Of a stretch of 64,000 bases of DNA, positions 4,531 through 54,450 are shown one piece after another. Made by a program: the position numbers and the translations under genes. Below the pieces are notes generated by a model. That model did not search any database, had not been told where the DNA came from, and saw only the letters and a program-made list of their open reading frames with translations. Positions within the stretch are counted from its first letter, which is position 1, and each line of letters starts with the position of its first letter. The stretch comes from Schistocephalus solidus (taxonomy: Eukaryota > Platyhelminthes > Cestoda > Diphyllobothriidea > Diphyllobothriidae), in contig WEDG01006405.1 in the NCBI GenBank assembly GCA_017591395.1, positions 45,533-109,532 of the forward strand, in the 5' to 3' direction.

Positions 4531-4599
4531 CAGGAGGACGCAGTACTGATAATTATATTGAGCTACCCAATGACCACACATTCTGAATTAAAATCCCAA

Positions 4600-4745
4600 G
4601 TTATCCAGACCTAGGGTTGGGTGTATATGTCCGACGCTGCCCAATAAGTCAGAAATGGCCATATTATCCTCCTTTTATTCTTGGCGTCCTCAGTTATCGC
4701 TATGTGACTGCCTGCATAAGGGAACCAGCATGTCCGGAACCTGAC
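4600..4745 (+). repeat. Degraded tRNA/hammerhead repeat (3' half)
   Basis: Matches the 3' half of the ~300-bp repeat found at 23.6-24.7 kb: the 'ttgggt' lead-in, a worn hammerhead region (4,625-4,672, retaining AGAAATGGCCAT), then the 'tcgctatg.gactgcct' segment that in the intact array belongs to the start of the next unit. Because the homology crosses a unit boundary, this copy probably came from a tandem or dimeric form. Confidence 0.65.
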
Positions 4746-18049: not shown

Positions 18050-18365
18050 GCAAATAGGCTGAGCATTGCCGGCAAATAAAAGAGAGACCGTAATGGTAAC
18101 CTCTGGCTCATAAGCGGTTATCAACCAGTCATACCCAACCCCAGGTGGAGCACCACTCAAGGTTTTGAACCCACGACCTGTTAATTAGAAATCCAACGCT
18201 CTAAACATTTAACCATAGACTCGTTCTCTTGGTGGTTTAGAGAATATTGACAATCGTTGATGGACGCTTCAACGATCAGTTACTGGACTCATTCATTCCG
18301 TTCTGCCTTGGGGTTCACTATTGGGCCCCACCAGCAGTCGCTAGTGTCATAGGTAAGTGAACAGT
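18050..18365 (-). repeat. tRNA/hammerhead repeat copy, diverged
   Basis: A single, nearly full-length but diverged copy of the ~300-bp repeat on the minus strand. Ribozyme region 18,086-18,130 (core reads TTGATAA, so inactive, though GACTGG and CGGTC arms remain), tRNA-like region about 18,163-18,222, then the upstream segment including the 'cagtcgc' landmark near 18,335. This standalone copy shows that the tRNA-like and ribozyme parts belong to one element and were not brought together only in the 23.6-kb array. Confidence 0.75.
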
Positions 18366-20280: not shown

Positions 20281-20282
20281 AA

Positions 20283-20377
20283 CACTTGGGATTGGGTATG
20301 ACTGGCTGATGACGGCTAATAAGCCAGAAATGTCCATTCCGGTCTCCCTTGTCTTTGGCGGTTTCACATTATCAACA
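20283..20377 (+). repeat. tRNA/hammerhead repeat, 3' fragment fused to PLE-B
   Basis: The last ~95 bp of the repeat: the 'acacttgggattgggtatg' lead, then the hammerhead (20,300-20,344) with an intact CTGATGA core, GGCT/AGCC stem II, GAAA and GACTGG/CCGGTC stem I. One substitution breaks the palindromic stem III (TGTCCA instead of TGGCCA). It runs directly into the left terminal repeat of PLE-B; the bases AACA at the join fit both partners. Confidence 0.85.
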
Positions 20378-20983
20378 CCAGATACAAGTAGCACACCACC
20401 CTACATCTACTTTACGCTCACAGCTTGTACACCCTAAGGACAGGGTTAGCTACCTTGATAAAAAGGTGTTGTCTACAAAATTCCATGTTCCAGTTGTAAT
20501 GCCGTTTATTGTGGCCAAACTGGGAAATCTGTCTCAACCCGCCTACACGAACATCAGTTGGCGGTTAGAAGACGAGACCATTTATCCCAAGTGGCTATGC
20601 ATACACTGGAAACCGGACATAAATTTGCATGGGAGAAAACACGGATTGTTGGCATCTGCCCAATCAGAAAAGGCCGTGAATTCCTGGAAGCAATGCACTC
20701 AGATGAGGCATGCATCAACCGGCATATCGATTTGGATGCCACATACAAAATCGTTAAAGAAAAATTCAAACGCGCACAACCAATCACGACGGGATGACGA
20801 AATACACTGAAAGCCTATTGGTTCGGATTTTGGGCAATCTCAGAATCCTTTGTTTAACACGGTTAATTGATTAATTGTTCCTGTACACTGCCTGTAGTCT
20901 GACGACGAGCTGGGGGACCAGTCTCGAAAATTTACGCATTAAAGTTTCTATTTTTTTTCCCAAAGAATTTCATCTTTTCTATT
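20374..20983 (+). repeat. PLE-B left pseudo-LTR
   Basis: About 610 bp, nearly identical to 22,946-23,554. It contains the endonuclease 3' half (frame broken by the same one-base deletion in an A-run as the right copy), the 3' untranslated part and a hammerhead motif at 20,897-20,935. It is followed after about 12 bp by the ATG of the element's coding region. Confidence 0.9.
20897..20935 (+). ncRNA. Minimal hammerhead ribozyme motif, PLE-B left repeat
   Basis: CTGACGA core, an extra C, stem II (GAG/CTC plus CTGG/CCAG, loop GGGA, one bulged T), GAAA, then the self-complementary AATT that would make stem III only between two molecules. Stem I has just GT/AC next to the core. PLEs are known to carry such minimal hammerheads, thought to act as dimers. 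Conservation of stem II pairing in the second PLE subfamily supports it. Confidence 0.65.
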
Positions 20984-20995
20984 GAATATCTTGGG

Positions 20996-23369
20996 ATGCC
21001 TGTTTTTCAATACATACGTACGAATTTTGAGCGAAGTGTTTTGCTTTGTGCTCGACGATGGGAAAAGTGTACCATTCGCGAAAGTTTAACGCGAGAACAA
21101 TTATCCTTTTTACACCGTTGTCGAAACAATAGGATTCTACCGAAATCCGTGAAGATAAAACCCGCAATAAAGTCATCCCAGGGCTTTCAAGCCGCTTTCC
21201 GTTACGGCTATCAAATGCTTGGAGCATTTATAACAGACGCACACTATCGACTTCGTAGATTCAAGGAGCAGAAAGAACAAAACATGCAATTTTGCCATGA
21301 CCAACTCCCTGCACACGTATTTAAAACACTACAGGAAACTATCACGCACGTTTCAGAACTAGAACGACTAAAAAAGAGAAGCATCTTGACGAAAAAGTGG
21401 ATGAGAATTTCTCATGAAAATCACAATGATACGATGTATCCAAATAAAGTCATAAACTTATCCTCGAAAGTCCTAACAAAAACAGAGGAAAAGGTGCTGT
21501 CCAAAGGAATGAAGTACAATCCATCGGATTCCAACTACCTTGACTTCCTTGCAAACTTTGAATCAATCATATCATCAACAAATCTTACAGAAGAAGAACA
21601 GTTTGCAATTCGCAGCAGTACTGTACATGCCTTGAATAACCGAAGTAAACACTCAACATTATCTTGCGATGAAAGAAAAGCACTCAAGGCACTGAAACAA
21701 GAAAAAGATATCATCATTCTACCTGCTGATAAAGGAGGTGCAACCACCATCCTAAACAAAGAAGATTACACAGGGAAAATGCTTTCAATTTTTAAAAGAC
21801 GATTCAACATACAAACCTTTGTCTGCAGACCCCACAAAATCCCAAAACTCGTGCATTGAAAAAGCACTAAAACGCCTTACGGGAAGGAAATTAATATCAG
21901 AAGTTCTTGCTAAATCCTTAAAACAGGAAGAACCCACCATTGCAAAAATATATGGTCTTCCAAAAATTCACAAAACTGGTATCCCACTGCGACCGATAGT
22001 CTCTTTAATCGGTGCACCGAATTATAAAATTTCAAAGTGGCTATTTCACCAGCTATATCCACTTACAAAGAACTCTGAATACTCCATTGAAGATTCAAAA
22101 CGTTTTCTAGACAAATTAAAAGGAATCACAGTTACATCTGACGAGGTAATGGTTTCATTCGATGTGGTCTCGCTCTTCACCTCGATCCCCCTTGATTTAG
22201 CGAGATCATGCACCGAAGAACTACTCCACGCCTACGTCACTGATGTACCTGCCGATGCATTACTCCAACTCCTAGACCTTTGTCTAGAAACCAATTTTTC
22301 CTTCTCCGGCCAATGCTATCAACAACTTAAAGGAGCCCCTATGGGGTCACCCATATCCGGCTTCCTGGCTGAAGCTGTAATGCAGAAATTGGAATCGATA
22401 GCTCTCCCTGGTGTAAAACCAAAATTGTGGTTGCGATACGTTGATGATACATTTGTCATCGTCAAGAAAGAACTATTAGATCCGCTCCACAAAAATTCTA
22501 AACTCAACATTTCCAGGAATTGAATTTACGTTCGAGACGGAAGCTGATGGACAACTCCCATTTCTGGATGTCCTCGTACATCGGAAAACTGATGGATCAC
22601 TCCACACCTCAGTTTACCGCAAAGAAACATATTCTGAGGTCATCCTACACTTTGAGAGTAATCATCCTATCTCTCACAAAAGGAGTTCTGTCTACAGTCT
22701 CCTAAATCGAGCCAAAACACACTGCTCTGATGAAGAAAGTTATCGAGCAGAAATGAAATACCTATTTAACTTGTTCTCTAAAAATGGATACCCCCGTGAC
22801 TTCGTGTATCGATGTCTAAAACAACAAGAATCCAAAGAGAAAGGTATTTCAAACACCACGGCCACCCAGGCACCCAAAACAATGACCTGGCGAACTCTCC
22901 CATACATTAAAAATGTATCTGAGCTTGTCGAAAGACAGCTTAAAAAACACCAGATACAAGTAGCACACCACCCTACATCTACTTTACGCTCACAGCTTGT
23001 ACACCCTAAGGACAGGGTTAGCTACCTTGATAAAAAGGTGTTGTCTACAAAATTCCATGTTCCAGTTGTAATGCCGTTTATTGTGGCCAAACTGGGAAAT
23101 CTGTCTCAACCCGCCTACACGAACATCAGTTGGCGGTTAGAAGACGAGACCATTTATCCCAAGTGGCTATGCATACACTGGAAACCGGACATAAATTTGC
23201 ATGGGAGAAAACACGGATTGTTGGCATCTGCCCAATCAGAAAAGGCCGTGAATTCCTGGAAGCAATGCACTCAGATGAGGCATGCATCAACCGGCATATC
23301 GATTTGGATGCCACATACAAAATCGTTAAAGAAAAATTCAAACGCGCACAACCAATCACGACGGGATGA
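20996..23369 (+). pseudogene. PLE-B reverse transcriptase-GIY-YIG endonuclease, three frameshifts
   Basis: Retroelement polyprotein: RT plus C-terminal GIY-YIG endonuclease for target-primed insertion. Frame 1 (20,996 to about 21,795) is the N-terminal region with ILPADKGG. Frame 2 (to about 22,498) has YGLPKIHKTGIPLRPI, SFDVVSLFTSIPLD (first catalytic Asp), GAPMGSPISG and LRYVDDTFVI (catalytic Asp pair). Frame 3 (from 22,513) continues the thumb and linker; after about 23,034 the endonuclease continues in a shifted frame. Each break is a single-base indel, two of them in homopolymers (about 21,795; A-run at 23,032-23,036, five A where PLE-C has six) and one extra T near 22,498. ATG at 20,996 chosen because it opens the first frame just after the left repeat. 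Likely otherwise intact. Confidence 0.9.
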
Positions 23370-23554
23370 CGAAATACACTCAAAGCCTATTGGTTCGGAT
23401 TTTGGGCAATCTCAGAATCCTTTGTTTAACACGGTTAATTGATTAATTGTTCCTGTACACTGCCTGTAGTCTGACGACGAGCTGGGGGACCAGTCTCGAA
23501 AATTTACGCATTAAAGTTTCTATTTTTTCCCAAAGAATTTCGTCTTTTTCTATT
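22946..23554 (+). repeat. PLE-B right pseudo-LTR
   Basis: Direct repeat partner of 20,374-20,983, covering the endonuclease 3' half and the 3' untranslated region. The hammerhead motif is at 23,469-23,507 and is unchanged from the left copy. Differences seen include a G/C change near 23,380 and length changes in T-runs near 23,525 and 23,545. It ends in a (TA)-rich microsatellite. Confidence 0.9.
23469..23507 (+). ncRNA. Minimal hammerhead ribozyme motif, PLE-B right repeat
   Basis: Same motif as at 20,897: CTGACGA, extra C, paired stem II with GGGA loop, GAAA followed by palindromic AATT. In a full-length PLE transcript the two copies would sit about 2.57 kb apart, so paired cleavage would release a unit-length RNA. 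Confidence 0.65.
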
Positions 23555-23612
23555 ATATATATCTATATATATATGTATATATATATGTATATACATGATA
23601 TGTTGTCTATAT
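23555..23612. repeat. (TA)n-type microsatellite at PLE-B 3' end
   Basis: Interrupted TA-rich tract (tatata, tctata, tgtata variants) directly after the right end of PLE-B and before the tRNA/hammerhead array. Confidence 0.85.
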
Positions 23613-23627
23613 ACTAGAGACAAGGGA

Positions 23628-23672
23628 GACCGGAATGGCCATTTCTGGCTTATTAGCCGTCATCAGCCAGTC
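23628..23672 (-). ncRNA. Hammerhead ribozyme motif, array unit 1
   Basis: Type I hammerhead layout read on the minus strand: stem I GACTGG/CCGGTC (six pairs, one G-T), intact CTGATGA core, an unpaired C, stem II GGCT/AGCC with loop AATA, an A, GAAA, then palindromic ATGGCCAT followed by T as the cleavage-site base. C opposite A at the foot of stem II is unlike the usual G-C pair. The palindrome means stem III is either a tiny hairpin or formed between two RNAs. Confidence 0.75.
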
Positions 23673-23697
23673 ATACCCAATCCCAAGTGTGGAACAC

Positions 23698-23761
23698 CTG
23701 GGATTCGAACCCGCGACCTTTGGTATTTGAGTCGAACGCTCTACCATTGAGCCACGGGCTC
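23698..23761 (-). ncRNA. tRNA-like module with A and B boxes, unit 1
   Basis: Sense strand begins GAGCCCG and contains TGGCTCAATGG, a perfect fit to the RNA polymerase III A-box consensus, and GGTTCGAATCC, a perfect B box. The D-arm pairs (GCTC/GAGC) and the T-loop is canonical. The anticodon stem does not pair and the acceptor 3' strand is missing, so this is a tRNA-derived promoter module and not a working tRNA. Confidence 0.85.
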
Positions 23762-23928
23762 GTTGCTTTTGTCGGTTGCGATCGGGAATATGATGATAGT
23801 GTGGCTCACCGATCTGCTTAAGGAACATGTATGTTCCGTTGTGCCCTGGAGCTCAGACTAGAGCCCTCACAGGCAGTCGCATAGCGACGTGTAGCATATG
23901 ATGAAATGGAACCGACAAAGACAAGGGA

Positions 23929-23973
23929 GACCGGAATGGCCATTTCTGGCTTATTAGCCGTCATCAGCCAGTC
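23929..23973 (-). ncRNA. Hammerhead ribozyme motif, array unit 2
   Basis: Identical in arms, core and palindrome to unit 1, exactly 301 bp further on. Cleavage at both sites would release an RNA of about 300 nt with the tRNA-like module near its middle. Confidence 0.75.
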
Positions 23974-23998
23974 ATACCCAATCCCAAGTGTGGAACAC

Positions 23999-24062
23999 CT
24001 GGGATTCGAACCCGCGACCTTTGGTATTTGAGTCGAACGCTCTACCATTGAGCCACGGGCTC
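23999..24062 (-). ncRNA. tRNA-like module with A and B boxes, unit 2
   Basis: Same A box, B box and D-arm as unit 1, so every complete unit carries its own internal polymerase III-type promoter. Confidence 0.85.
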
Positions 24063-24228
24063 GTTGTTTGTCGGTTGCGATCGGGAATATGATGATAGTG
24101 TGGGGCTCACCGATCTGCTTAAGGAACATGTATGTTCCGTTGTGCCCTGAGCTCAGACTAGAGCCCTCACAGGCAGTCGCATAGCGACGTGTAGCATATG
24201 ATGAATGGAACCGACAAAGACAAGGGGA

Positions 24229-24273
24229 GACCGGAATGGCCATTTCTGGCTTATTAGCCGTCATCAGCCAGTC
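24229..24273 (-). ncRNA. Hammerhead ribozyme motif, array unit 3
   Basis: Third array copy; arms, CTGATGA core, stem II and GAAA unchanged. Its unit is cut at 24,310 within the adjoining tRNA-like part. Confidence 0.75.
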
Positions 24274-24401
24274 ATACCCAATCCCAAGTGTGGAACACCT
24301 GGGATTCGAGTTCCAGGGCACAACGGAACATAAATGTTCCTTAAGCAGATCGGTGAGCCACACACTATCATCATATTCCCGATCGCAACCGACAAAGCAA
24401 C

Positions 24402-24465
24402 GAGCCCGTGGCTTAATGGTAGAGCGTTCGACTCAAATACCAAAGGTCGCGGGTTCGAATCTCAG
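24402..24465 (+). ncRNA. tRNA-like module, inverted copy
   Basis: A box TGGCTTAATGG and B box GGTTCGAATCT; each differs by one base from the array copies. D-arm pairing is weakened by the C-to-T change. Confidence 0.8.
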
Positions 24466-24490
24466 GTGTTCCACACTTGGGATTGGGTAT

Positions 24491-24535
24491 GACTGGCTGA
24501 TGACGGCTAATAAGCCAGAAATGGCCATTCGGTCT
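24491..24535 (+). ncRNA. Hammerhead motif, inverted copy
   Basis: CTGATGA core, GGCT/AGCC stem II, GAAA and ATGGCCAT intact. One C is lost after the cleavage site, so stem I is GACTGG against CGGTC. Confidence 0.7.
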
Positions 24536-24667
24536 CCTTGTCTTTGTCGGTTCCATTATCAACATATACACGTCGCTATGCGACTGCTCTGTGAGTACTC
24601 TAGTCTGAGTTCCAGGGCAAACAACGGAACATAAATGTTCCTTAAGCAGATCGGTGAGCCACACACT

Positions 24668-24668
<1 letters not shown>

Positions 24669-24728
<60 letters not shown>

Positions 24729-24757
24729 TATATATATATATATATATATATTTCCCA
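24669..24757. repeat. Long (TA)n microsatellite
   Basis: Roughly 85 bp of TA dinucleotides, interrupted once by 'tgc'. Read-through frames of alternating Tyr-Ile here are not genes. Confidence 0.95.
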
Positions 24758-24838
24758 TATATATAAGAAGTGGAAAGACGGCATCCCAAGAAATAAAGTT
24801 GAAGTTGAATACGTTCTATGGGAAATGGAGCTTTATTG

Positions 24839-24880
24839 TGTAAATGTTCAACACCGGTTCTCCGGGTCGTCGTTAGACAG
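24839..24880 (-). ncRNA. Hammerhead-like motif, PLE subfamily 2, inactive copy
   Basis: Core reads CTAACGA (the conserved G is changed) and GAAA has become GAAC. Stem II with CCGG/CCGG is kept. Confidence 0.5.
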
Positions 24881-24994
24881 GACAGGCTGATACACACGGC
24901 GGCCGCTCAATGGTGCCAATGTTCACGCCAGTATCGATTTTTTTCGCGTGATAACGATGTCAACTGTTTTTGGTCACATTTCCTGCCCGCCTGC

Positions 24995-25033
24995 GTCTGA
25001 CGACGACCCGGAGAACCGGTGTTGAAAATTTAC
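24995..25033 (+). ncRNA. Minimal hammerhead motif, PLE subfamily 2
   Basis: CTGACGA core, extra C, stem II (GAC/GTT plus CCGG/CCGG, loop AGAA, bulged T), GAAA and palindromic AATT. Every stem II position that differs from PLE-B still pairs, which is strong evidence for a conserved RNA fold. Confidence 0.65.
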
Positions 25034-25097
25034 ACAATAAAGCTCCATTTCCCATAGAACGTATTCAACTTCTATATATATATCTATATATCTATAT

Positions 25098-26435
25098 AGA
25101 AAAGACGAAATTCTTTGGGAATAAATCGAAACTTTAATGCGTAAATGTTCGAGACTGGTCCCCCAGCTCGTCTTCAGACTACGGGCAGTGTACAGGAACA
25201 ATAAATCAATTAACCATGTTAAACAAAGGATTCTGAGATTGGGCAAAATCCGCACCAATAGGCTTTGATTGTATTTCATCATCCCGTCGTGATTGGTTTT
25301 GGGCGTTTGAATTTTTCTTTAACGATTTTGTATGTGGCATCCAAATCGATATGCCGGTTGATGCATGCCTCATCTGAGTGCATTGCTTCCAGGAATTCAC
25401 GGCCTTTTCTGATTGGGCAGATGCCAACAATCCGTGTATTCTCCCATGCAAATTTATGTCCGGTTTCCAGTGTATGCATAGCCACTTGGGATAAATGCTC
25501 TCGTCTTCTAACCGCCAACTGATGTTCGTGTAGGCGGGTTGAGACAGATTTCCCAGTTTGGCCACAATAAACGGCATTACAACTGGAACATGGAATTTTG
25601 TAGACAACACCTTTTTTATCAAGGTAGCTAACCCTGTCCTTAGGGTGTACAAGCTGTGAGCGTAAAGTAGATGTAGGGTGGTGTGCTACTTGTATCTGGT
25701 GTTTTTTAAGCTGTCTTTCGACAAGCTCAGATACATTTTTAATGTACGGGAGAGTTCGCCAGGTCATTGTTTTGGGTGCCTGGGTGGCCGTGTTGTTTGA
25801 AATACCCTTCTCTTTGGATTCTTGTCGCTTTAGACAACGATACACGAAGTCACGGGGGTATCCATTTTTTGAGAGCAAGTTAAAGAGGTATATCATTTCT
25901 GCTCGATCACTTTCTTCATCAGAGCAGTGTGTTTTGGCTCGATTTAGGAGACTGTAGACAGAACTCCTTTTTTGAGAGATAGGATGATTACTCTCAAAGT
26001 GTAGGATGACCTCAGAATATGTTTCTTTGCGGTAAACTGAGGTGTGGAGTGATCCATCAGTTTTCCGCTGTACGAGGACATCCAGAAATGGGAGTTGTCC
26101 ATCAGCTTCCGTCTCGAACGTAAATTCAATTCCTGGAAATGTTGAGTTTAGATTTTTGTGGAGCAGGTCTAATAGTTCTTTCTTGACGATGACAAATGTA
26201 TCATCAACGTATCGCAACCACAATTTTGGTTTAACACCACGGAGAGCTATCGATTTCAATTTCTGCATTACAGCTTCAGCCAGGAAGCCGGATATGGGCG
26301 ACCCCATAGGGGCTCCTTTAAGTTGTTGATAGCATTGGCCGGAGAAGGAAAAATTGGTTTCTAGACAAAGGTATAGGAGTTGGAGATAAGCATCGGCAGG
26401 TACATCAGTGACGTAGGCGTGGAGTAGTTCTTCGG
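25098..26435 (-). mobile_element. Penelope-like element C, 5'-truncated
   Basis: Same subfamily as PLE-B, on the minus strand. The 3' end at 25,098 abuts a TA-rich tract; the 5' end is cut inside the RT palm at about 26,435, where it joins a tRNA/hammerhead repeat. Unlike PLE-B the frame is open throughout. A hammerhead motif lies at 25,139-25,179 (core CTGAAGA, which fits CTGANGA, but GAAC instead of GAAA). Confidence 0.9.
25139..25179 (-). ncRNA. Hammerhead-like motif of PLE-C
   Basis: Core CTGAAGA fits the consensus and the stem II arms GAG/CTC and CTGG/CCAG pair. The GAAA element reads GAAC, so activity is doubtful. Confidence 0.5.
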
Positions 26436-26559
26436 TGAGCCCCACACTATCATCATATTCCTGATCACAACCGACAAAAACAACGAGCCCGTGGCTCAAT
26501 GGTAGAGCGTTCGACTCAAATACAAAAGATCGCGGGTTCGAATCCCAGGTGTGCCACAC
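25279..26559 (-). CDS. PLE-C RT remnant + GIY-YIG endonuclease ORF (chimeric start)
   Basis: A 426-codon open frame. Residues 1 to about 42 are read from the antisense of the adjoining tRNA/hammerhead repeat. The PLE part starts with EELLHAYVTD, keeps KGAPMGSPISG and LRYVDDTFVI, then the thumb and linker, and ends with a complete GIY-YIG domain: VVYKIP..C..C..VYCGQTGK, then STRLHEHQ, and the C-terminal HSDEACINRHI region. The RT fingers and the first catalytic Asp (in SFDVVSLF of PLE-B) are missing, so the RT must be dead, while the endonuclease looks intact. Two Cys between GIY and YIG are typical of PLE endonucleases. Whether the ORF is expressed is unknown. Confidence 0.85.
   Translation of the reverse strand: MWHTWDSNPRSFVFESNALPLSHGLVVFVGCDQEYDDSVGLTEELLHAYVTDVPADAYLQLLYLCLETNFSFSGQCYQQLKGAPMGSPISGFLAEAVMQKLKSIALRGVKPKLWLRYVDDTFVIVKKELLDLLHKNLNSTFPGIEFTFETEADGQLPFLDVLVQRKTDGSLHTSVYRKETYSEVILHFESNHPISQKRSSVYSLLNRAKTHCSDEESDRAEMIYLFNLLSKNGYPRDFVYRCLKRQESKEKGISNNTATQAPKTMTWRTLPYIKNVSELVERQLKKHQIQVAHHPTSTLRSQLVHPKDRVSYLDKKGVVYKIPCSSCNAVYCGQTGKSVSTRLHEHQLAVRRREHLSQVAMHTLETGHKFAWENTRIVGICPIRKGREFLEAMHSDEACINRHIDLDATYKIVKEKFKRPKPITTG
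26485..26549 (+). ncRNA. tRNA-like module with A and B boxes
   Basis: TGGCTCAATGG and GGTTCGAATCC are both perfect; D-arm paired. The anticodon-arm region differs slightly from the array copies (aatacaaaaga). Confidence 0.85.
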
Positions 26560-26573
26560 TTGGGATTGGGTAT

Positions 26574-26618
26574 GACTGGCTGATGACGGCTAATAAGCCA
26601 GAAATGGCAATTCCGGTC
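26574..26618 (+). ncRNA. Hammerhead motif of the PLE-C-linked repeat
   Basis: GACTGG/CCGGTC stem I, CTGATGA, GGCT/AGCC and GAAA intact. One C-to-A change makes stem III non-palindromic. Confidence 0.7.
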
Positions 26619-26635
26619 TCCCTTGTCTTTGCCCT

Positions 26636-30464: not shown

Positions 30465-30545
30465 GCATATGCGTCCCGTTGGATATGACTGTCTGATGAC
30501 GGCTTATACGCCAGAAATGGCCATTTCAGTCTGTTTTGTCTTCCT
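30465..30545 (+). repeat. tRNA/hammerhead repeat, 3' fragment
   Basis: Only the ribozyme portion and short flanks remain. The copy has several substitutions relative to the 23.6-kb array, yet its ribozyme core is unchanged. Confidence 0.75.
30487..30531 (+). ncRNA. Hammerhead motif with compensatory change
   Basis: CTGATGA, GAAA and ATGGCCAT are intact. Stem I reads GACTG against CAGTC: a G-to-A change turns the G-T wobble of the array copies into a T-A pair. The first pair next to the core is T against T. Stem II reads GGCT..CGCC, with one weakened pair. Confidence 0.65.
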
Positions 30546-31290
30546 CTGCAGTTATTTTTTCCCTCTACTCTAATAACGGGAAGGTAAAGCAGTAGGGTAC
30601 TCTTAAAAAGAATGCGAACCGTGCCGTTTAGGGACTTCAGAAAAATGAGAAAATCAAAATTTTCATAGCAAGATATCTGGCCTTTCAAACATCAAATTCC
30701 AAAACGTCGTAAACTATCATGTACTGACTGCAACAAATTACAATATTTTACTCCCCCTATAAAAACTGATTATACTTATAAGGGTACCAGAGACTACTGG
30801 AAAGCATTCCGACTAAGGTACTATTGGAGGTTTCCCAACTGTGATGGGCATCTCAGAACTCGAAAACTTGTCGTTACAAGCGAACGGCGATTTCAAGGAA
30901 AGAAAGGGCGCCTGGATTGTCAGAAAAATGTTTACATTCACCTGACGTTTCGGATTCACTCTCGAGCCCCCTGGCACATAGCTTTGTCTGCTGCTGGCTC
31001 TGATTACGCCTTCAAGAGTAAAAACCGAAACACCAAGCAAATCAAATGCCCGTGTCCCCGATCGAAGATCCGACCGTTCAGCTGGAAACATTCTCGGCCA
31101 AACGCCCGCATGGCATTCTGTATTGAGTAAGAAGAGGCCATGGTACTCATCTCAGCAACAGAGTCGATTAACTACTCTTTTCAGTGGAAAATCGGTAGTG
31201 AATGCAGTCACTGAAGTGGGGCGAGAATTTGACGCCTTAGGGGTCAAACAAACCGTAACATCGATCGCACATGCAGCAGTCGGAGCTTAC

Positions 31291-31624
31291 ATTAATGAAG
31301 GCCAAACAGAGGACTATGAGACCAAGGATGGGATGGATGTAGTCGGGATAGGAGGAGAGGGTCGAATAGCCGTAGCAGAAGGCGAAGGCGAGGATGACGG
31401 CGATGCAGGTGAGGCCGACACACACGCCCATCAGGATGCGGTGCAGCTGAAACCAGACGCGTTCACCCAGGAGGCCAGAATTGGGCCACATATCCTTGTA
31501 GTAGCGAGATAGGATAACGCCCACACTGGAGCAGAACACCCACGCCAGCACCATCATGCAGCCATGCGCCTTCGCCACGCCAGACGCCCGCATCTGATCC
31601 TCTATGCGCACTCCATACAGTGGT
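31291..31624 (-). CDS. Ferric reductase-like gene, exon 4 (cytochrome b561 core)
   Basis: Acceptor cctcttacacag and donor gtaagc frame 334 bases: one base completing a Ser codon, then 111 codons. It encodes PLYGVRIEDQMRASGVAKAH and three hydrophobic helices. Three candidate haem histidines lie at conserved places: KAHGCMMVLAW (His226), FQLHRILMG (His267) and YIHPILGLIVL (His303). In cytochrome b561 proteins such His pairs hold two haems that carry electrons across the membrane. The 'AHG..M..AW' and 'HP.LG' motifs are typical of the FRRS1/DOMON-b561 family. GC content is higher than in the introns around it. The clearest exon of the window. Confidence 0.95.
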
Positions 31625-34600
31625 CTGTGTAAGAGGAAGAGAAGCAAGATGAGGAGAAGGTGGGCGAGGAGCGTGCAAATAGACAAAAAGCCGTTAAAGT
31701 GTCAAAGCAAAGCACACCTTCTGCAAAACGTCTGACGGACCAGTTGAAGCGGTATTTAGGGAGTCTGGGCAGTGATTGTACTCGGAGCACTATAAGCATC
31801 AGAGCGAACCTTTCGCCAAATAACTGTGTGAAACCTAAAACCCCCTATTCTTTGAAGCAGTCGGAAAACCAGATCGTGTGTGGCAGGCATAGATGGTCCG
31901 TTAAAATTTCGCAGCTACTCCGTCCATCATGCTTGTGTCTTGTCATTTTAATTTGGTCCCCCCATTGAAACACATTGGGGATGGGAGAGTAGATTGAGAT
32001 ATACGGCGTTCAAGTCTGCTTCCACATCAAAAACAACTCAGGAGCAAGTTACGACCGCGCCATTTGGATGGCAGCGACGGCGACGTAACCCGTCTATTGG
32101 TACGGTCAATCCACTGAATTTTTGTTGGTCAAAAGTATGACTTGCTTAAAGTTAGAAACAACTGTTGCCCATAATTCACTGTCTGTGTGTGGCTGCCTCA
32201 GATTTCGAAGCACGTAATCATAAATCCAGGAAATTTGTCAACGGACGAAGCCTGGGAAAATAGCTTGCGAATCCTAAATGGAGAAGGAACAAGGCAAGCA
32301 GAAACTCTAAGAAAGGAGAGTCTATACGTGCTTCTTCTCGCCTCTATAGGACTAGACTAAAACCCCTGACCTCTGAACGCCCTCAACCCTCTCCCCCGTA
32401 CTTACTGCCTATTAGATGTTTAAACTTGCGTCACTTTACCCTCCCTTAAGGCCTGATAATGAATAATCAAAAGCATGCATTCGCAAAACTCGACTTCTTA
32501 AAAAGTCTCTAAAAGTTTTGAATGCAAGCAGAAATTTGAAGTGGCTTAACGACCAAATACAATGAAAAGATTGCAGTTGACGAGGTGGAAGTAGACATCC
32601 TACTTGGCTACCCAGTTCTGGGAAGACCTCTTTTTAGTTGTGCTAGAAAGAGTGACCTCTCAACTCGGCACTTCATCTGTGGAATAGGATGACTCCCGCA
32701 AATACGTCCAACGAAGCAGGGAAGACTTGCATGTCAATTTGCTTTTAATGATCGAGAGACTCTTCCAGCGTCAACCTCACTCTCTAACCAAACAGATTTT
32801 AGTTCTGTAACCATAAGATATCAAGTGGACTAGAAATTCGGTTTGCGCGTCCAATATGAGGCCAAAAGCCACAATACGAATGGGTCCGCCCTTATTGAGA
32901 GAAGCAGCCTACAAGCACACCACCACACCGAATCATCTACCCAGTCGAGACGGCTGCCGGAGGGTGAAACTACAGTTGTCACCAGATTCGCGAAGTCATA
33001 GAAACCAAGACAGGTTAAAATGGCGTGGGGTGTCGTGCCACTAGAGGGCTTTAAATGCCATTGGACAGTGAAACCTTGGATCCTAAAAAACCCCAATAAC
33101 TGCAGTTAGGAGAACGATCTTGAAACAATCTTGCATATATGGTATCAGCCGTTTTGTCAAAGGCCTGAACCGGAGCAGGCCCTAGTCCTCCAGGCTACCT
33201 TGAAGAACTAGGGCGAATGGGTGCCGTTATATGTACGTGGTAGCAATTATTGACGTTTGTTAAAATTCACCAGGCAGCCCCGGCGTGAGCACAAAAGCAG
33301 CGCTGGTGCACTTTTAGAATTGGGCGATGCAAAAAGGGTTCATCTGTTTTCCGCATTTGAAGCAAAGATTACCATACTGCGCAGTTGAGGATAGGGTCCA
33401 CTTGAGTTCCAGGGCGCTTGCTAGCTCAATAAAGGCTAAAAATGCACACCAAAGTCTGCTGATGCGGAAGGATAAGATACGATCGCTGGAACGGGAAGTT
33501 TATTGGTCTGACTTTTCGGATTCTCACTCCATACCCATCATCAGAAACAGTGGCAGATAAGGATTATAGAGGCAAAAGGTGTGCAGTATTGATAGTCCGT
33601 AGTGTTCACGCGAACACATGCGTACTAAAATTAGAAGCCATCGCGACCACCGCGGAGGGACGTAATTGATGCCACGATGGCTTGGCCATCAGCGTACGAG
33701 TCGTTATCTGTCACTGTCTGTGGTGATGGGTTCGTCTCCTTGTGAAATGCTTCCTGGAACTCGACTTTTGCTTTTATAAGCGGTCGGCTATTCATGCACC
33801 CGTTTGGGATATATGTCCTAGAGTGTGTACAAATCGGCTTAAAACAAAGTTTGAACTGAGAAGCACGTCTGTAAACGGTCATTTCCAGACATGCTAATAA
33901 AGTCAATTGACGTTTAAATACGATTAAGTAGTTTAAATTGCACTGAAAAGGACTGGGGAGAGTGTAGCGGGCGAAACGAACAAATTTGAAGCACTGAATC
34001 AGTTTTGCAGTGCGAGGCCCTGTCGGTGTCGATTCCAGTGCACTGACGCGGGTAAAATCGAGAGATTTTTCGACTCTCTTCGTATGATGTACGCCTTGTC
34101 GACGGTGTACAAAGGTATTCCGCAACACGTATTTCATCTCATCGTCGTTGAAGATACAGCATGTGACCTATATCATGAAACCGTGATGATGGAAATTGAA
34201 ATGATCAACTGTTGGCAACTTAAATGCTGCGCATTTAATTGATTCGCCTAATCTATTGCGAAAAATGAACTTTTTATGCATATCGTGTTTATAAATAATT
34301 TAAAACAGTCAAAAGTTTAGCCAATTTCAGTGGAAATCTTCGTTGCCTTGAATTCCGGTGGTTTTCTATGATGCGAGCTATCGTAGGCTATGTTTGCGAA
34401 TCCGTGCGTTTTCTATAGGAAGAAAGTTATCCAAACTCGAGTTTTACTAAACGGAACGTGCCGCACTTGAAAATGGATTGTGTTATCTACGTTAATCAGA
34501 TAAAGCAAGGCACGAGTAAACAGGTTATTTTTAGAAACCCACACAAAAAATTATCTAGTAAGATACTTTTTTATGATTCAGTTTCCATTAATGCGTAAGT

Positions 34601-51451: not shown

Positions 51452-54450
51452 TATTTTATTTTATTTTATTTATTTATTGCCAGTTTACAGGCAAGGTCAA
51501 AAAATGTACAGTAAAGGGTCAAGCTGACAGTGAAAAAACTCCTGATCGTTGTTTCAGGTGTTTTCGGGAAAAAAAACTGCACCTTATTGAGTAATTAAAG
51601 TTCTGGGAAAAGATGCGTTAAGACAGGTGCCCGGTGAAGAACCTCTCCATTCAGTGTTACGGATCCGGTATTCTGCACCAGCAGGTATGTCGGCGAGCGG
51701 CTGTTCGCTGTCGACTGAGAAATAAGCCAATTGAAGTCTGCAGAGCCAGTTATATTGTCCTCAGCATGAAGACCGGCACAGGATTCAGAGTCCGTGAACG
51801 CCATCAGAACCGAAGAGAGCTTCAACAGAGTCAGCACCCAAAAGTTTTGGAAGGTGTCCTGAATGTAGAAAACTAGTGACAGTTCGCGTAAACAAGGGAT
51901 AGCTTTGCTGAATTTTGATACTTCTAGGTAGCTTATTCCAGATTTCTATAGCAGTTACCGAAAAAAACTGTCGGAATCTAACTGTGCGTACCAAAGGAAG
52001 AAATATAAATACATCTCGATGACTGGTGCGCCAAGAGTGGTCGAGGTGCCTCAGAGATGTAAGGGGGTTAAATGTACGACTGTTTAGAAGTTTAAACAGT
52101 ACAAATAGTCTCTTCTGTAATCTGCGAAGCAACAGCGGGTCAATGTTTGTAAGCTCACAGCGTTGTTGGTAGGACAGGTTTCGGTGTTCTGAATAGAAAA
52201 ATCTTTTTTTGTAAAGAAGTGCTGGACTGATTCTATCTTCTTTCGTTCACTAGCGTGCAGAAGACTAAATAGAAACGAGCAGTATTCCAGACTAGGCCTG
52301 ACATACATTTTATAGAGGCTGATTCTAATTTTGACGGTTTTAAAATTTCTGAGAATAAACCCAGTAGTTTGGCGTGCTTTCGAGACAATCAGGGCGCAGT
52401 GCTCTGACAGATTAGGACTACTAGAGTGTATGATATGCCCAGATCCTTTATAACTCCGGGCACGTTTAGATCGTGGCCGTCTATGCTAAGGTGGGTCTGA
52501 TGGTTGTCGCCAATAACCATAAAGGAGCACTTTTGCCAAGAAAGTGAGAGGCGCCATTTGCGACACCACTGAGCGAAGGCCTGAAGATCCGTTTTTACGA
52601 GCTCAAGCACGATGTTGCGATCAACCGGTTTATATCGATAGGCAACTTTTAAATCGTCAGCGTACATAAAGGGCCTACCATACTGAAAACAATCAGGAAC
52701 ATCGTTGACAAAGAGGCAAAATAGAAGCGGGCCGAGCACGCTGCCCTGAATAACTCCGCTCCTCACATGCGTGGGAGTTGGAGATAACATCAGAAATTTT
52801 AACCCGTTGTGCGTGAGCATTCAAATAGGAAAAATATTAAGTTCAGAAGCTTGTTACCCTGCTATGCCGAAGGAGGCAAGTTTCAGCAGTAGGAGATCAT
52901 GGTCAACATGATCAAAAGCCTTAGTGAAATCGAAGTAAACGGTGTAAATTGCAAACCACTGTCTCTAGATTGTAGCACATGATCGAAGAAAGAGAGCTGG
53001 CAAGTGTCACAAGACCTTTTTTCAAGAAAACCATGCTGAGCCGCATTAAGTAGGTTATTTTCTCTTAGGTGACACGTCATTTTGTCTTTGATCAAGGTCT
53101 CGAAGATCTTCGAGACTGCTGGTAGTGTATTTATTGGCCTAAAGTCGTCAAATGACGTAGGTCGGCCGTGTTTCGGAAAAGGCAGTATGTGCGATTCCTT
53201 CCATAAAATAGGGAAAGTTTCACTTTCAAGAGCAAGATTAAATATCTTTTACAGAAGGGACGGAAAAATATCGTTTGCATCCGCCTTTAGAACGCTGACC
53301 GGGACGCCATCTGGTCCTGGACTGTAAGATTGACGAAACGCCGAATGGCTACGGTCACGTCCCAGAGGAGTAAAAGTTATGGTTTCGAGGACGTTACCGG
53401 TCCAAACCCGGATGTTAGGAAAGGGGGCGACAGTATGTTCACTAAAGGTTCTAGACAAGAAAGCATTGAAGCTATCAGCAGTCAACTTAGCGTCAGCTAT
53501 TGGGTTTCCTAAGGCATCTCAAAGTACGGTGTGCTGCGTTTTTCTCTGCGCTTTTACTGTGCGCGAAAAGAGCTTCGCAACATTTAACGAAGGGTTTTCG
53601 GCAAACGTAACCTCATCGGCTTGTCGTTTTTCGTCAGACAGCCTCTTAGCCTCTTTAAAGATTTCCTGGATCAAGGGCAGGACGGAGGTGTCATTTTTTA
53701 GATGAAAACGACGGGAGAGTCTACGCAGTCTACGGCGGAATGATAAAGGGAGGTAGACTTCATCCTTGACATTAATTATTTTCTTACGGGGAACAAAACG
53801 AGAAATGAGTGAACCTAGAACTTTGTCAAAAGTATCAGTACAAACATTCACATCCGAACATACAAAGAAGTTAGTCCAGTCATGGGAATTTAGGTGTGTT
53901 AGCAATTCCCTCATATTTTCTGATCTGAAATCACGGAAAAAGCTATATTTTTTGGAAAACATTTTAGCAGCCTCTAGTTCTAGTGTAGAAAGAACTATAG
54001 TATGATCAGAATTCCCAAGTGGATCTAAAGGTGACACTGACGAGGGCTGACAACCTCTACAAAAAATAAGATCAAGTATGTTTGATCCTCGGGTGGGAAA
54101 AATCAACTACCTGGTCCCACATGCCTATATCTATGGCCTCAAGTAGGTCTTCGAACTTTGCAGGACCGGAAGTTGGAAACCAGTGAACTTCAGGAAGATT
54201 GAAGTCACCTGCAATCAAGCAGTACTTCAGATTTAAGTCAGCTGCAGCGTGAAATGCCTGCGAGAGACAAAGATCGTAATCCTCGCTGGCATTGGGTGGG
54301 CGATAGACACTACCAACGAGTAAAGAGTAGTTATCTTTTAGAACTACTCGGAGCCAACAGCTCTCCTCTACCACGGTAAATTGGCGATAGTCCAATGGAC
54401 AAAATGTAAGTGGTTGCCTAACAAAGATACAGCTTGTTGCGTGGGAAAGC
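51452..54450 (-). pseudogene. LINE-1 copy: CR1-type endonuclease-RT, longest copy
   Basis: Minus strand. Endonuclease: LVGSVYRPPN, LIAGDFNLPEVHWF, NILDLIF, then SDHTIV (54,395-53,950). Linker to about 53,520. RT: SPGPDGVPVSVLK (53,300), ENNLLNAAQHGFLEKRSC (53,050), SGVIQGSVLGPLLFCLFVND and YADDLKVAYRY with both catalytic Asp (about 52,750-52,640). C-terminal region includes VRPSLEYCSFLF (52,300) and FRQFFSVTAIEIWNKLP (51,950). The 3' end is marked by a (TTTTA)n-like tract near 51,452. The endonuclease N-terminus (NARS motif) is not seen. A few frameshifts remain but this is the best-kept LINE here. Confidence 0.9.

Follow-up and report, generated by a model that had tools for sequence, protein, structure and literature searches.

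An inverted tRNA-derived SINE with a hammerhead-like motif in the tapeworm Schistocephalus solidus, probably inserted by a Penelope-like element

Introduction

What kind of element is a tandem repeat of about 300 bp that joins a tRNA-like module to a hammerhead-like motif, and what placed it between two copies of a Penelope-like element (PLE)? The question is raised by positions 23618-24676 of a 64,000-nt stretch of the Schistocephalus solidus genome (contig WEDG01006405.1), which we refer to as the window (C4764:45533-109532 of an assembly of 603.7 Mb in 8,019 contigs; C numbers are contig labels). An original prediction, made from the letters of this DNA, had described a head-to-tail repeat coupling an RNA polymerase III (pol III) promoter of tRNA type to a hammerhead ribozyme. 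We show here that the block is an inverted copy and not a simple head-to-tail array, and that its units belong to a tRNA-derived short interspersed nuclear element (SINE). At a probability of about 0.6, we read the block as an inverted SINE copy likely made from multimeric or circular RNA by a PLE reverse transcriptase and inserted into an AT microsatellite. The most valuable part of the analysis lies in the insertion junctions, which point to Penelope-type insertion and lay outside the first reading of this DNA.

Sm-alpha and the animal retrozymes, which the original prediction had named as parallels, are the right ones. Sm-alpha of Schistosoma mansoni is described as a SINE that carries a type I hammerhead, is linked to tRNA-Gln-TTG and is estimated at more than 10,000 copies, and Sj-alpha is its counterpart (PMC2770079, PMC8490949). 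Metazoan retrozymes are described as ~300-bp tandem repeats expressed as circular RNA, with platyhelminths among the phyla and with species-specific sequences (PMC7229834). The autonomous mover of animal hammerhead retrozymes is treated as an open question in this literature (PMC7761336, PMC7229834); the repeats are reported to show no motif revealing an autonomous partner (PMC7761336), and PLEs have been named as strong candidate movers (PMC7229834). Hammerheads are known in PLEs, and Frangieh et al. (2024) report that an Anolis PLE protein favours AT-rich DNA, both cuts and extends the two strands, and begins at two internal sites by which the genomic tail is defined, with no need for hammerhead cleavage (PMC11167929). 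For tapeworms, the 2014 Spirometra genome paper gives a figure of 4 % SINEs, undescribed in what we draw on (PMC4265353), and no hammerhead SINE from a tapeworm was among the matches listed in the openly licensed PMC literature, a scope that leaves subscription papers outside.

Results

Structure of the repeat block

Units were numbered on the sense strand so that the tRNA-like part begins at u1, with 23762..24062 on the minus strand as the reference unit. The block and its borders consist of the following features.

23549..23605, unstranded: AT-rich tract separating the 3' end of a plus-strand PLE from the 3' end of the minus-strand SINE
23618..23761, minus strand: SINE unit fragment u1-144 (blastn with the 301-nt unit, 100 %), 3' end toward the left AT-rich tract
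23762..24062, minus strand: complete SINE unit u1-301, 301 bp, the reference unit (repeat spacing and blastn)
24067..24309, minus strand: SINE unit fragment u54-295 (blastn, 98 %)
24308..24401, plus strand: inverted SINE fragment u209-301 (blastn), head-to-head with the minus-strand units with a 2-nt overlap
24402..24676, plus strand: inverted SINE fragment u1-275 (blastn), 3' end running into (AT)n
24671..24760, unstranded: (AT)n tract at the 3' end of the plus-strand SINE

The leading units lie on the minus strand as direct repeats spaced 301 and 300 bp, and are met head-to-head by the plus-strand copy at 24308/24309. The head-to-tail order first proposed, with periods of 301 and ~299 bp, thus stands for the direct repeats but gives way at this inversion, and the extent first given as 23619..24668 becomes 23618-24676 by alignment, with the repeat then running into the (AT)n tract.

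The tRNA-like part (u1-71) scores 28.8 bits with the tRNA covariance model RF00005, just below the gathering score of 29, and contains an A box at u8-18 and a B box at u51-61. Perfect boxes had been claimed for each complete unit; in the plus-strand copy each box carries one change.

23691..23761, minus strand: tRNA-like region with A and B boxes (RF00005 28.8 bits, E 0.0016)
23992..24062, minus strand: tRNA-like region with A and B boxes (RF00005 28.8 bits, E 0.0016)
24402..24472, plus strand: tRNA-like region with one change per box (RF00005 22.9 bits, E 0.069)

Across copies, the A box is exact in 328/368 and the B box in 315/368, while both boxes are exact and the hammerhead core intact in 275 of 350 units from loci picked for an exact core or high identity. 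Neither the window nor four loci that contain old copies yielded a complete tRNA gene with ARAGORN. Read by eye in the RF00005 alignment, the anticodon position is CAA, and the anticodon stem is broken there. The reference unit lacks TTTT, which is present in 13 of 264 complete units; we do not take this absence as proof of pol III read-through, because TTTT is likewise missing from 59 % of shuffled units (Markov model). By its internal A and B boxes in a tRNA-like region and its high-copy, dispersed insertions, the element is a tRNA-derived SINE.

Older SINE fragments lie elsewhere in the window at 4592-4662, 18069-18203 and 30479-30542 (blastn identity 73, 74 and 86 %). Two old copies were also seen at L101, a locus that had been picked arbitrarily. 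The copy at 489-634 (72 %) keeps 38/45 positions in the region of the hammerhead-like motif and 74/108 elsewhere, and its tRNA part may be closer to a tRNA-Arg, a possible lead to the parent tRNA; the copy at 291-442 (70 %) shows little contrast (20/26 in the motif, 89/126 elsewhere).

Copy number and sample

The genome-wide copy count that had been suggested as a check gave 14,062 places with an exact 37-nt core, u96-132 (7,357 + 6,705; reversed control 0), which are spread across many contigs among the first 100 matches listed. As only 306 of 395 spanning copies in the sampled loci carry the exact core, the true copy number lies above this figure. The exact core was absent from the viral_contigs collection. 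Long arrays also occur: on contig C889 every stretch fetched between 14,500 and 40,000 (21.8 kb) was array, with 69 complete units at 95-98 %. The repeat is therefore tandem as first described, but, judged from its copies and junctions, the family is a dispersed SINE as well, with RNA-type insertion marks.

The sample comprised 62 loci with 473 fragments. Thirty-three segments, including the window, came from the 30 best-unit-match loci (two of them in the window), the first 30 exact-core places and two flank stretches; another 29 of 32 exact-core clusters on C24-C62 were added, with three multi-copy clusters (C53, C58, C60) omitted. This choice of loci biases counts of ribozyme integrity upward, and the core search pattern spans the predicted cut site.

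Insertion junctions

End scoring covered 72 insertions that measured 60 bp or more and had a best piece of at least 88 % identity, with smaller or older clusters and fetch-cut ends dropped. The 3' ends fall into two internal zones in 60 of 74 cases (35 in u144-167 and 25 in u264-275), and the 5' ends are scattered along the unit. An (AT)6+ tract lies within 38 nt of 44/74 3' ends versus 6/34 5' ends (Fisher p 6e-5); background frequencies were 295/11,057 positions of the sampled loci, 20/9,137 window positions and 0/2,168 windows of eight arbitrary loci. Inverted composites make up 22 of the 72 insertions; 39 of their outer ends are visible, and 37 of these are 3' ends. Joins between pieces were head-to-head in 17 cases (ten with overlapping ends) versus two tail-to-tail, both of the latter across an AT tract.

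Exact junctions were counted genome-wide, giving 1,399 for u270/275 followed by (AT)n, 344 for one spelling of the u167 end followed by (AT)n, and a single one for the predicted hammerhead cut site followed by (AT)n. The near absence of the last class indicates that priming does not usually use a 3' end made by the hammerhead, and we rejected hammerhead-cut RNA primed at its own 3' end on AT tracts as the usual template. None of the 34 5' ends lies at u126-132, and one of 68 does when head-to-head joins are included (1.6 expected if uniform), a count biased by the search pattern that spans the cut site. Priming appears to be internal and mostly in two zones. The junctions fit a circular or multimeric template as well as a linear one with internal entry.

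Penelope-like elements joined to the SINE

The SINE block is flanked by two inverted PLE copies, 20374-23554 on the plus strand and 26437-25088 on the minus strand, each of which is joined to a further SINE piece on its far side.

20282..20374, plus strand: SINE fragment u72-164, 3' end joined directly to the 5'-truncated PLE end at 20374
20374..23554, plus strand: PLE, a partial tandem copy and a longer copy (610-bp repeats 20374-20983 and 22946-23554, 99 %; RVT_1; frame broken)
23471..23505, plus strand: hammerhead-like motif of the PLE terminal repeat (CTGACGA...CGAAA, by eye), PLE 3' end 84 nt downstream
25088..26437, minus strand: 5'-truncated PLE copy, 97 % to 22211-23560
26432..26631, plus strand: SINE fragment u251-301 then u1-147, head-to-head with the 5'-truncated end of the minus-strand PLE with a 6-nt overlap

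The RVT_1 match scores 34.5 bits in the plus-strand copy and is below the cut-off in the minus-strand copy. Among the 120 relatives listed, the nearest are hypothetical or unnamed RVT_1 proteins of Sparganum and Spirometra, and three of the 120 carry GIY-YIG (PF01541). The domain scan did not call GIY-YIG in the window copies themselves, and the assignment to PLEs thus rests on the relatives, the tandem repeats and the hammerhead motif. Translations of the SINE found no match in the 120 listed relatives at E 1e-3.

Six SINE/PLE fusions were found, three head-to-head and three joining a SINE 3' end to a PLE 5' end. Two are placed at base level, namely SINE u164 with the plus-strand PLE at 20374 and SINE u251 head-to-head with the minus-strand PLE at 26432-26437. 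The others were found by protein alignment (C24:79100 and C39:21000, head-to-head; C24:198000 and C5:6582, SINE 3' to PLE 5'). For five of the six fusions the fetched sequence extends to the far side, and in none of these five is the PLE taken up again directly past the SINE, so these are not plain insertions into a PLE. C10:31641 was dropped as a fusion since PLE lies to its left and right, which is how a plain insertion would look; C30:69200 and, at C59:137000, the left side were dropped for PLE matches of only 38-44 % identity with an unclear boundary, and C15:117061 and C58:45200 as unclear PLE/SINE neighbours.

A single AT tract separates a PLE 3' end from an opposing SINE 3' end in the window, C61:163400 and C59:291400 and, with less certainty, C26:422900; C14:298327 and C59:137000 were dropped from this class as unclear. 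The distance from CTGACGA to the PLE 3' end is 84 nt in the window and 78 nt at C59:291400, and the distance from CTGATGA to the first SINE zone is 59-71 nt. PLE C-terminal ends have (AT)6+ within 300 nt in 9/46 cases versus 292/4,069 background windows, a comparison confounded by fragment ends.

A further structure, at 24801-25072 of the window, is an inverted pair of 78-bp arms lying between AT tracts and placed like the SINE block. The arms carry a hammerhead-like motif of their own (CTGACGACGACCCGG...GAAAA, by eye), and the structure resembles a short stretch from a second PLE subfamily.

The hammerhead-like motif

Positions u90-134 have the layout of a type I hammerhead: stem I GACTGG/CCGGTC, CTGATGA, stem II GGCT-AATA-AGCC, GAA and the palindrome ATGGCCAT, with the expected cut after u128 (AUU).

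23628..23672, minus strand: hammerhead-like motif u90-134 (descriptor match), predicted cut between 23634/23633
23929..23973, minus strand: hammerhead-like motif (descriptor match), predicted cut between 23935/23934
24229..24273, minus strand: hammerhead-like motif (descriptor match), predicted cut between 24235/24234

The descriptor (CUGANGA, GAAA, 4-bp stem II, 6-bp stem I, NUH, with a mismatch allowed at 10.1/11.1) matched five times in the window, always in the SINE family, and not once in 40 first-order Markov controls of 64 kb, so the matches are beyond chance. The fourth copy, on the plus strand, has lost one base in stem I and gives no match. In loci partly picked for an exact core, the core letters (CUGANGA, GAA, A15.1-U16.1, H17) are intact in 356/392 copies, and core and stems I and II together in 317/392. 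The UAU loop (u87-89) could pair with the AUA loop (u109-111) in 365 of 393 copies, and the two may make a loop-loop contact. Stem II reads C-GGCT-AATA-AGCC-A, which places a C·A mismatch at 10.1/11.1. By eye, the PLE motifs at 20899-20935 and 23471-23505 have an extra C after CTGACGA, like the SINE C at 10.1, possibly a trait common to the local hammerheads.

An unconstrained cofold of two motifs gives a double hammerhead with 28/28 expected pairs (-51.9 versus 2 x -22.3 kcal/mol). Within the 693-nt natural transcript of the minus strand, such a dimer is predicted between motifs 1 and 3, with mean pairing probabilities of 0.87-0.92.

Conservation of the motif

Ribozyme positions mutating as fast as their flanks had been one of the grounds named for refuting the original prediction, and here the outcome is equivocal. 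In the four oldest long copies (70-82 %) identity is 0.911 for u90-134, 0.735 for u135-301 and 0.785 for the tRNA part, but ten copies at 82-90 % show no ribozyme excess (0.900 versus 0.912 and 0.910). Younger classes show a small excess (0.968 versus 0.951, and 0.997 versus 0.988) that the choice of loci can explain. Among the 28 copies below 90 % that span the motif, 19 are more identical inside it than outside. Selection on source copies is suggested by the oldest copies alone.

Other features of the window and genome

An open reading frame at 31240-31701 on the minus strand shares 96 % identity with a Spirometra protein across 74 % of the frame; among its relatives, some carry PF03188 (cytochrome b561 type). 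COX1, translated with the flatworm code, came nearest to a cluster of Dibothriocephalus dendriticus (94 %), with Spirometra next (88 %), in keeping with a diphyllobothriid host. COX1 was found on contigs C589, C6369, C1080, C5997, C7083, C6182 and C5619, two of which have the same score and frame, one a slightly different one, and the others stops beyond TGA; these are probably duplicated mitochondrial contigs and perhaps nuclear copies.

Discussion

From the boxes, the motif and the insertion ends, all of them observed, we infer how transcription, cutting, circle formation and insertion might fit together. Pol III would start at the internal A and B boxes, and a tandem array could be read through because the reference unit is without TTTT. 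Two motifs in one transcript are predicted to pair through the palindromic AUGGCCAU (8-bp stem III) into a double hammerhead, which would cut after AUU to leave ~300-nt units closable by a host ligase. Reverse transcription would start mostly from u155-167 (27-39 nt past the cut site) or u264-275, apparently primed from the end of an AT tract. The outward 3' ends and head-to-head pieces suggest that both DNA strands are primed and the cDNAs then joined. The enzyme would be the reverse transcriptase/endonuclease of a PLE, because PLE and SINE pieces are fused, three of them head-to-head as SINE pairs are, because AT tracts are common to the 3' ends of both, and because a PLE enzyme has been found to act in this way in vitro. 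Long arrays would then probably grow by DNA-level exchange.

The insertion anatomy of the SINE, as far as its junctions can be compared with the published account, closely matches PLE behaviour. AT-rich targets, two internal start zones past the hammerhead and priming of both strands (a matter of interpretation for the SINE) are common to both, whereas the SINE zones are ~110 nt apart as compared with a 30-40-bp tail in PLEs, and the SINE codes for nothing known. As the anatomy resembles the in vitro behaviour of a PLE enzyme, we propose, tentatively and at just under even odds, a SINE whose autonomous partner is a PLE and not a long interspersed nuclear element (LINE). Its hammerhead and ~35-nt tail would imitate the PLE terminal repeat, and the PLE enzyme would start internally, at AT tracts and on both strands, on a SINE RNA made endless by being circular or multimeric.

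Whether that template is a closed circle, made by hammerhead cutting and ligation as in the published retrozyme model (PMC7229834), or an uncut multimer is a narrower question, and we hold the circle to be possible at somewhat below even odds. It would account for the near absence of cut-site/(AT)n junctions and for the scarcity of 5' ends at u126-132. An uncut multimer would, however, yield identical junctions, the count of 5' ends is biased by its search pattern, and the Anolis PLE is reported to take unprocessed RNA in vitro (PMC11167929).

Several results weigh against our reading, and a first group concerns the motif. The C·A at 10.1/11.1 occurs in 375 of 392 copies examined, where a paired position would be expected, and Perreault et al. 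describe this pair as the most conserved of the hammerhead apart from A15.1-U16.1 (PMC3088659). A natural U·U at this position is reported, and supports more activity than other mispairs (PMC3088659). On these data the C·A is a real handicap. No Rfam hammerhead model matched at gathering thresholds, in the block at E<=5 or in one unit at E<=10. The minimum free energy (MFE) fold of a lone motif (u72-145) is of hairpin type at -22.3 kcal/mol, with -12.0 for the constrained hammerhead monomer, and in the 693-nt transcript neighbouring motifs are predicted barely to pair (0.00-0.08). In the 28 copies below 90 % the ribozyme (0.879; median window 0.853) is not the best-conserved stretch, the top window being 0.917 at u244. 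The dimer fold is kept in 23/97 distinct ungapped natural copies versus 28/97 randomly substituted controls; selection on single copies was thus not seen, and single copies decay freely, as those of a SINE would.

These results favour a vestigial or inactive hammerhead whose sequence persists as a hairpin (CUGGCU/AGCCAG) or a landing structure for the reverse transcriptase, with no self-cutting and no circles. So do the rarity of cut-site/(AT)n junctions and the report that the Anolis PLE inserts without hammerhead activity (PMC11167929). We consider this alternative doubtful but a serious contender. Against it, the other core letters are intact in most copies of our biased sample, the possible UAU/AUA loop pairing is widely kept, and two copies left unconstrained fold as the double hammerhead, which the natural tandem transcript also favours for its motifs 1 and 3. 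As the hammerhead fold appears for two copies and the monomer folds as a hairpin, cutting by the motif, if any, is likely to be dimeric, in the manner of the newt satellite. The original prediction is upheld in its coupling of a tRNA-like module to a type I hammerhead layout within tandem units of ~300 nt, with reservation as to the C·A. Of the covariance searches it had proposed, that with the tRNA model came just short of its threshold and that with hammerhead models found nothing; the inversion and the mismatch had gone unnoticed.

The second group concerns the PLE. Four of the six fusions are placed by protein alignment alone, to ~40 nt, and 30 of 74 3' ends are without an (AT)6+ tract, including u147 of the 26432 fusion. 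Both 3' zones (u155-167 and u264-275) themselves resemble (AT)n, whereas the start site of the Anolis PLE is described as not homologous to its target (PMC11167929). PLE enrichment right beside the SINE was not seen, since PLE coding DNA makes up 13.7 % of sequence within 300 nt of the SINE versus 21.7 % farther off in the same loci (background 8.6 % in the window and 114/11,208 nt in eight arbitrary loci). The case for the PLE therefore rests on the joins and not on neighbourhood. Mobilization by a LINE is the way in which most tRNA-derived SINEs move; the AT-tract ends would then reflect the target preference of that LINE, and a broken LINE lies at ~51785-54449 on the minus strand of the window (RVT_1 and a sub-threshold endonuclease-like match). 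We nevertheless consider it unlikely in view of the two internal 3' zones, the head-to-head pairs and the direct SINE/PLE fusions. The four open reading frame pieces of this LINE were unmatched in the other 61 loci, a comparison in which the PLE query of 120 proteins was far wider. Ordinary satellite DNA spread by unequal exchange, rolling-circle copies and repair patches at AT tracts fits the C889 arrays and the break-prone nature of AT tracts, but is very unlikely and was rejected in its simple form, because short single copies with preferred 3' zones yet scattered 5' ends, the strand-polar association with AT tracts and the outward 3' ends of inverted composites require a polar, RNA-like process.

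Inverted SINE insertion by a PLE enzyme, our preferred reading, places the element close to several known systems. By description, it has in common with Sm-alpha and Sj-alpha a tRNA-derived SINE with a type I hammerhead and a unit of similar length (~335 bp there), in more than 10,000 copies in a parasitic flatworm (PMC2770079, PMC8490949, PMC6155905). The type I ribozyme of Sm-alpha is proven and fast, whereas the tapeworm motif has the C·A mismatch; the tapeworm SINE also differs in its palindromic stem III, which needs two copies, and in its cestode host. With metazoan non-LTR retrozymes as described it has in common ~300-bp repeats in dimers to long multimers, a type I hammerhead, a lack of coding capacity and a genome containing PLEs (PMC7229834). 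With reservation as to the C·A, its hammerhead-bearing tandem unit falls in the retrozyme range of 150-450 bp. At 51.5 % GC, the reference unit exceeds the low GC content given for retrozymes (<45 % in a figure legend and <50 % in the text), and it has a tRNA-like promoter, of which the retrozyme descriptions in that source make no mention (PMC7229834). The newt satellite, again by description, is a tandem repeat with a hammerhead active as a dimer via a longer helix III, in a different host and with no tRNA-like part in that account (PMC6155905). Because the 10.1/11.1 pair, the Rfam match and the GC content all fail, we do not file the element as a canonical hammerhead or retrozyme; as modelled, with its C·A and its hairpin as monomer MFE, the ribozyme is non-canonical.

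In architecture the element matches Sm-alpha, and it is the insertion anatomy that bears in a new way on the movement of such elements. A natural hammerhead variant that depends on two copies in tandem and accepts C·A at 10.1/11.1 would also be of use. In a single genome with thousands of scorable copies, start zones, two-strand priming and SINE/PLE fusions are open to computational test. If our reading is true, the long-sought engine of animal hammerhead retrozymes would be readable from genomic junctions.

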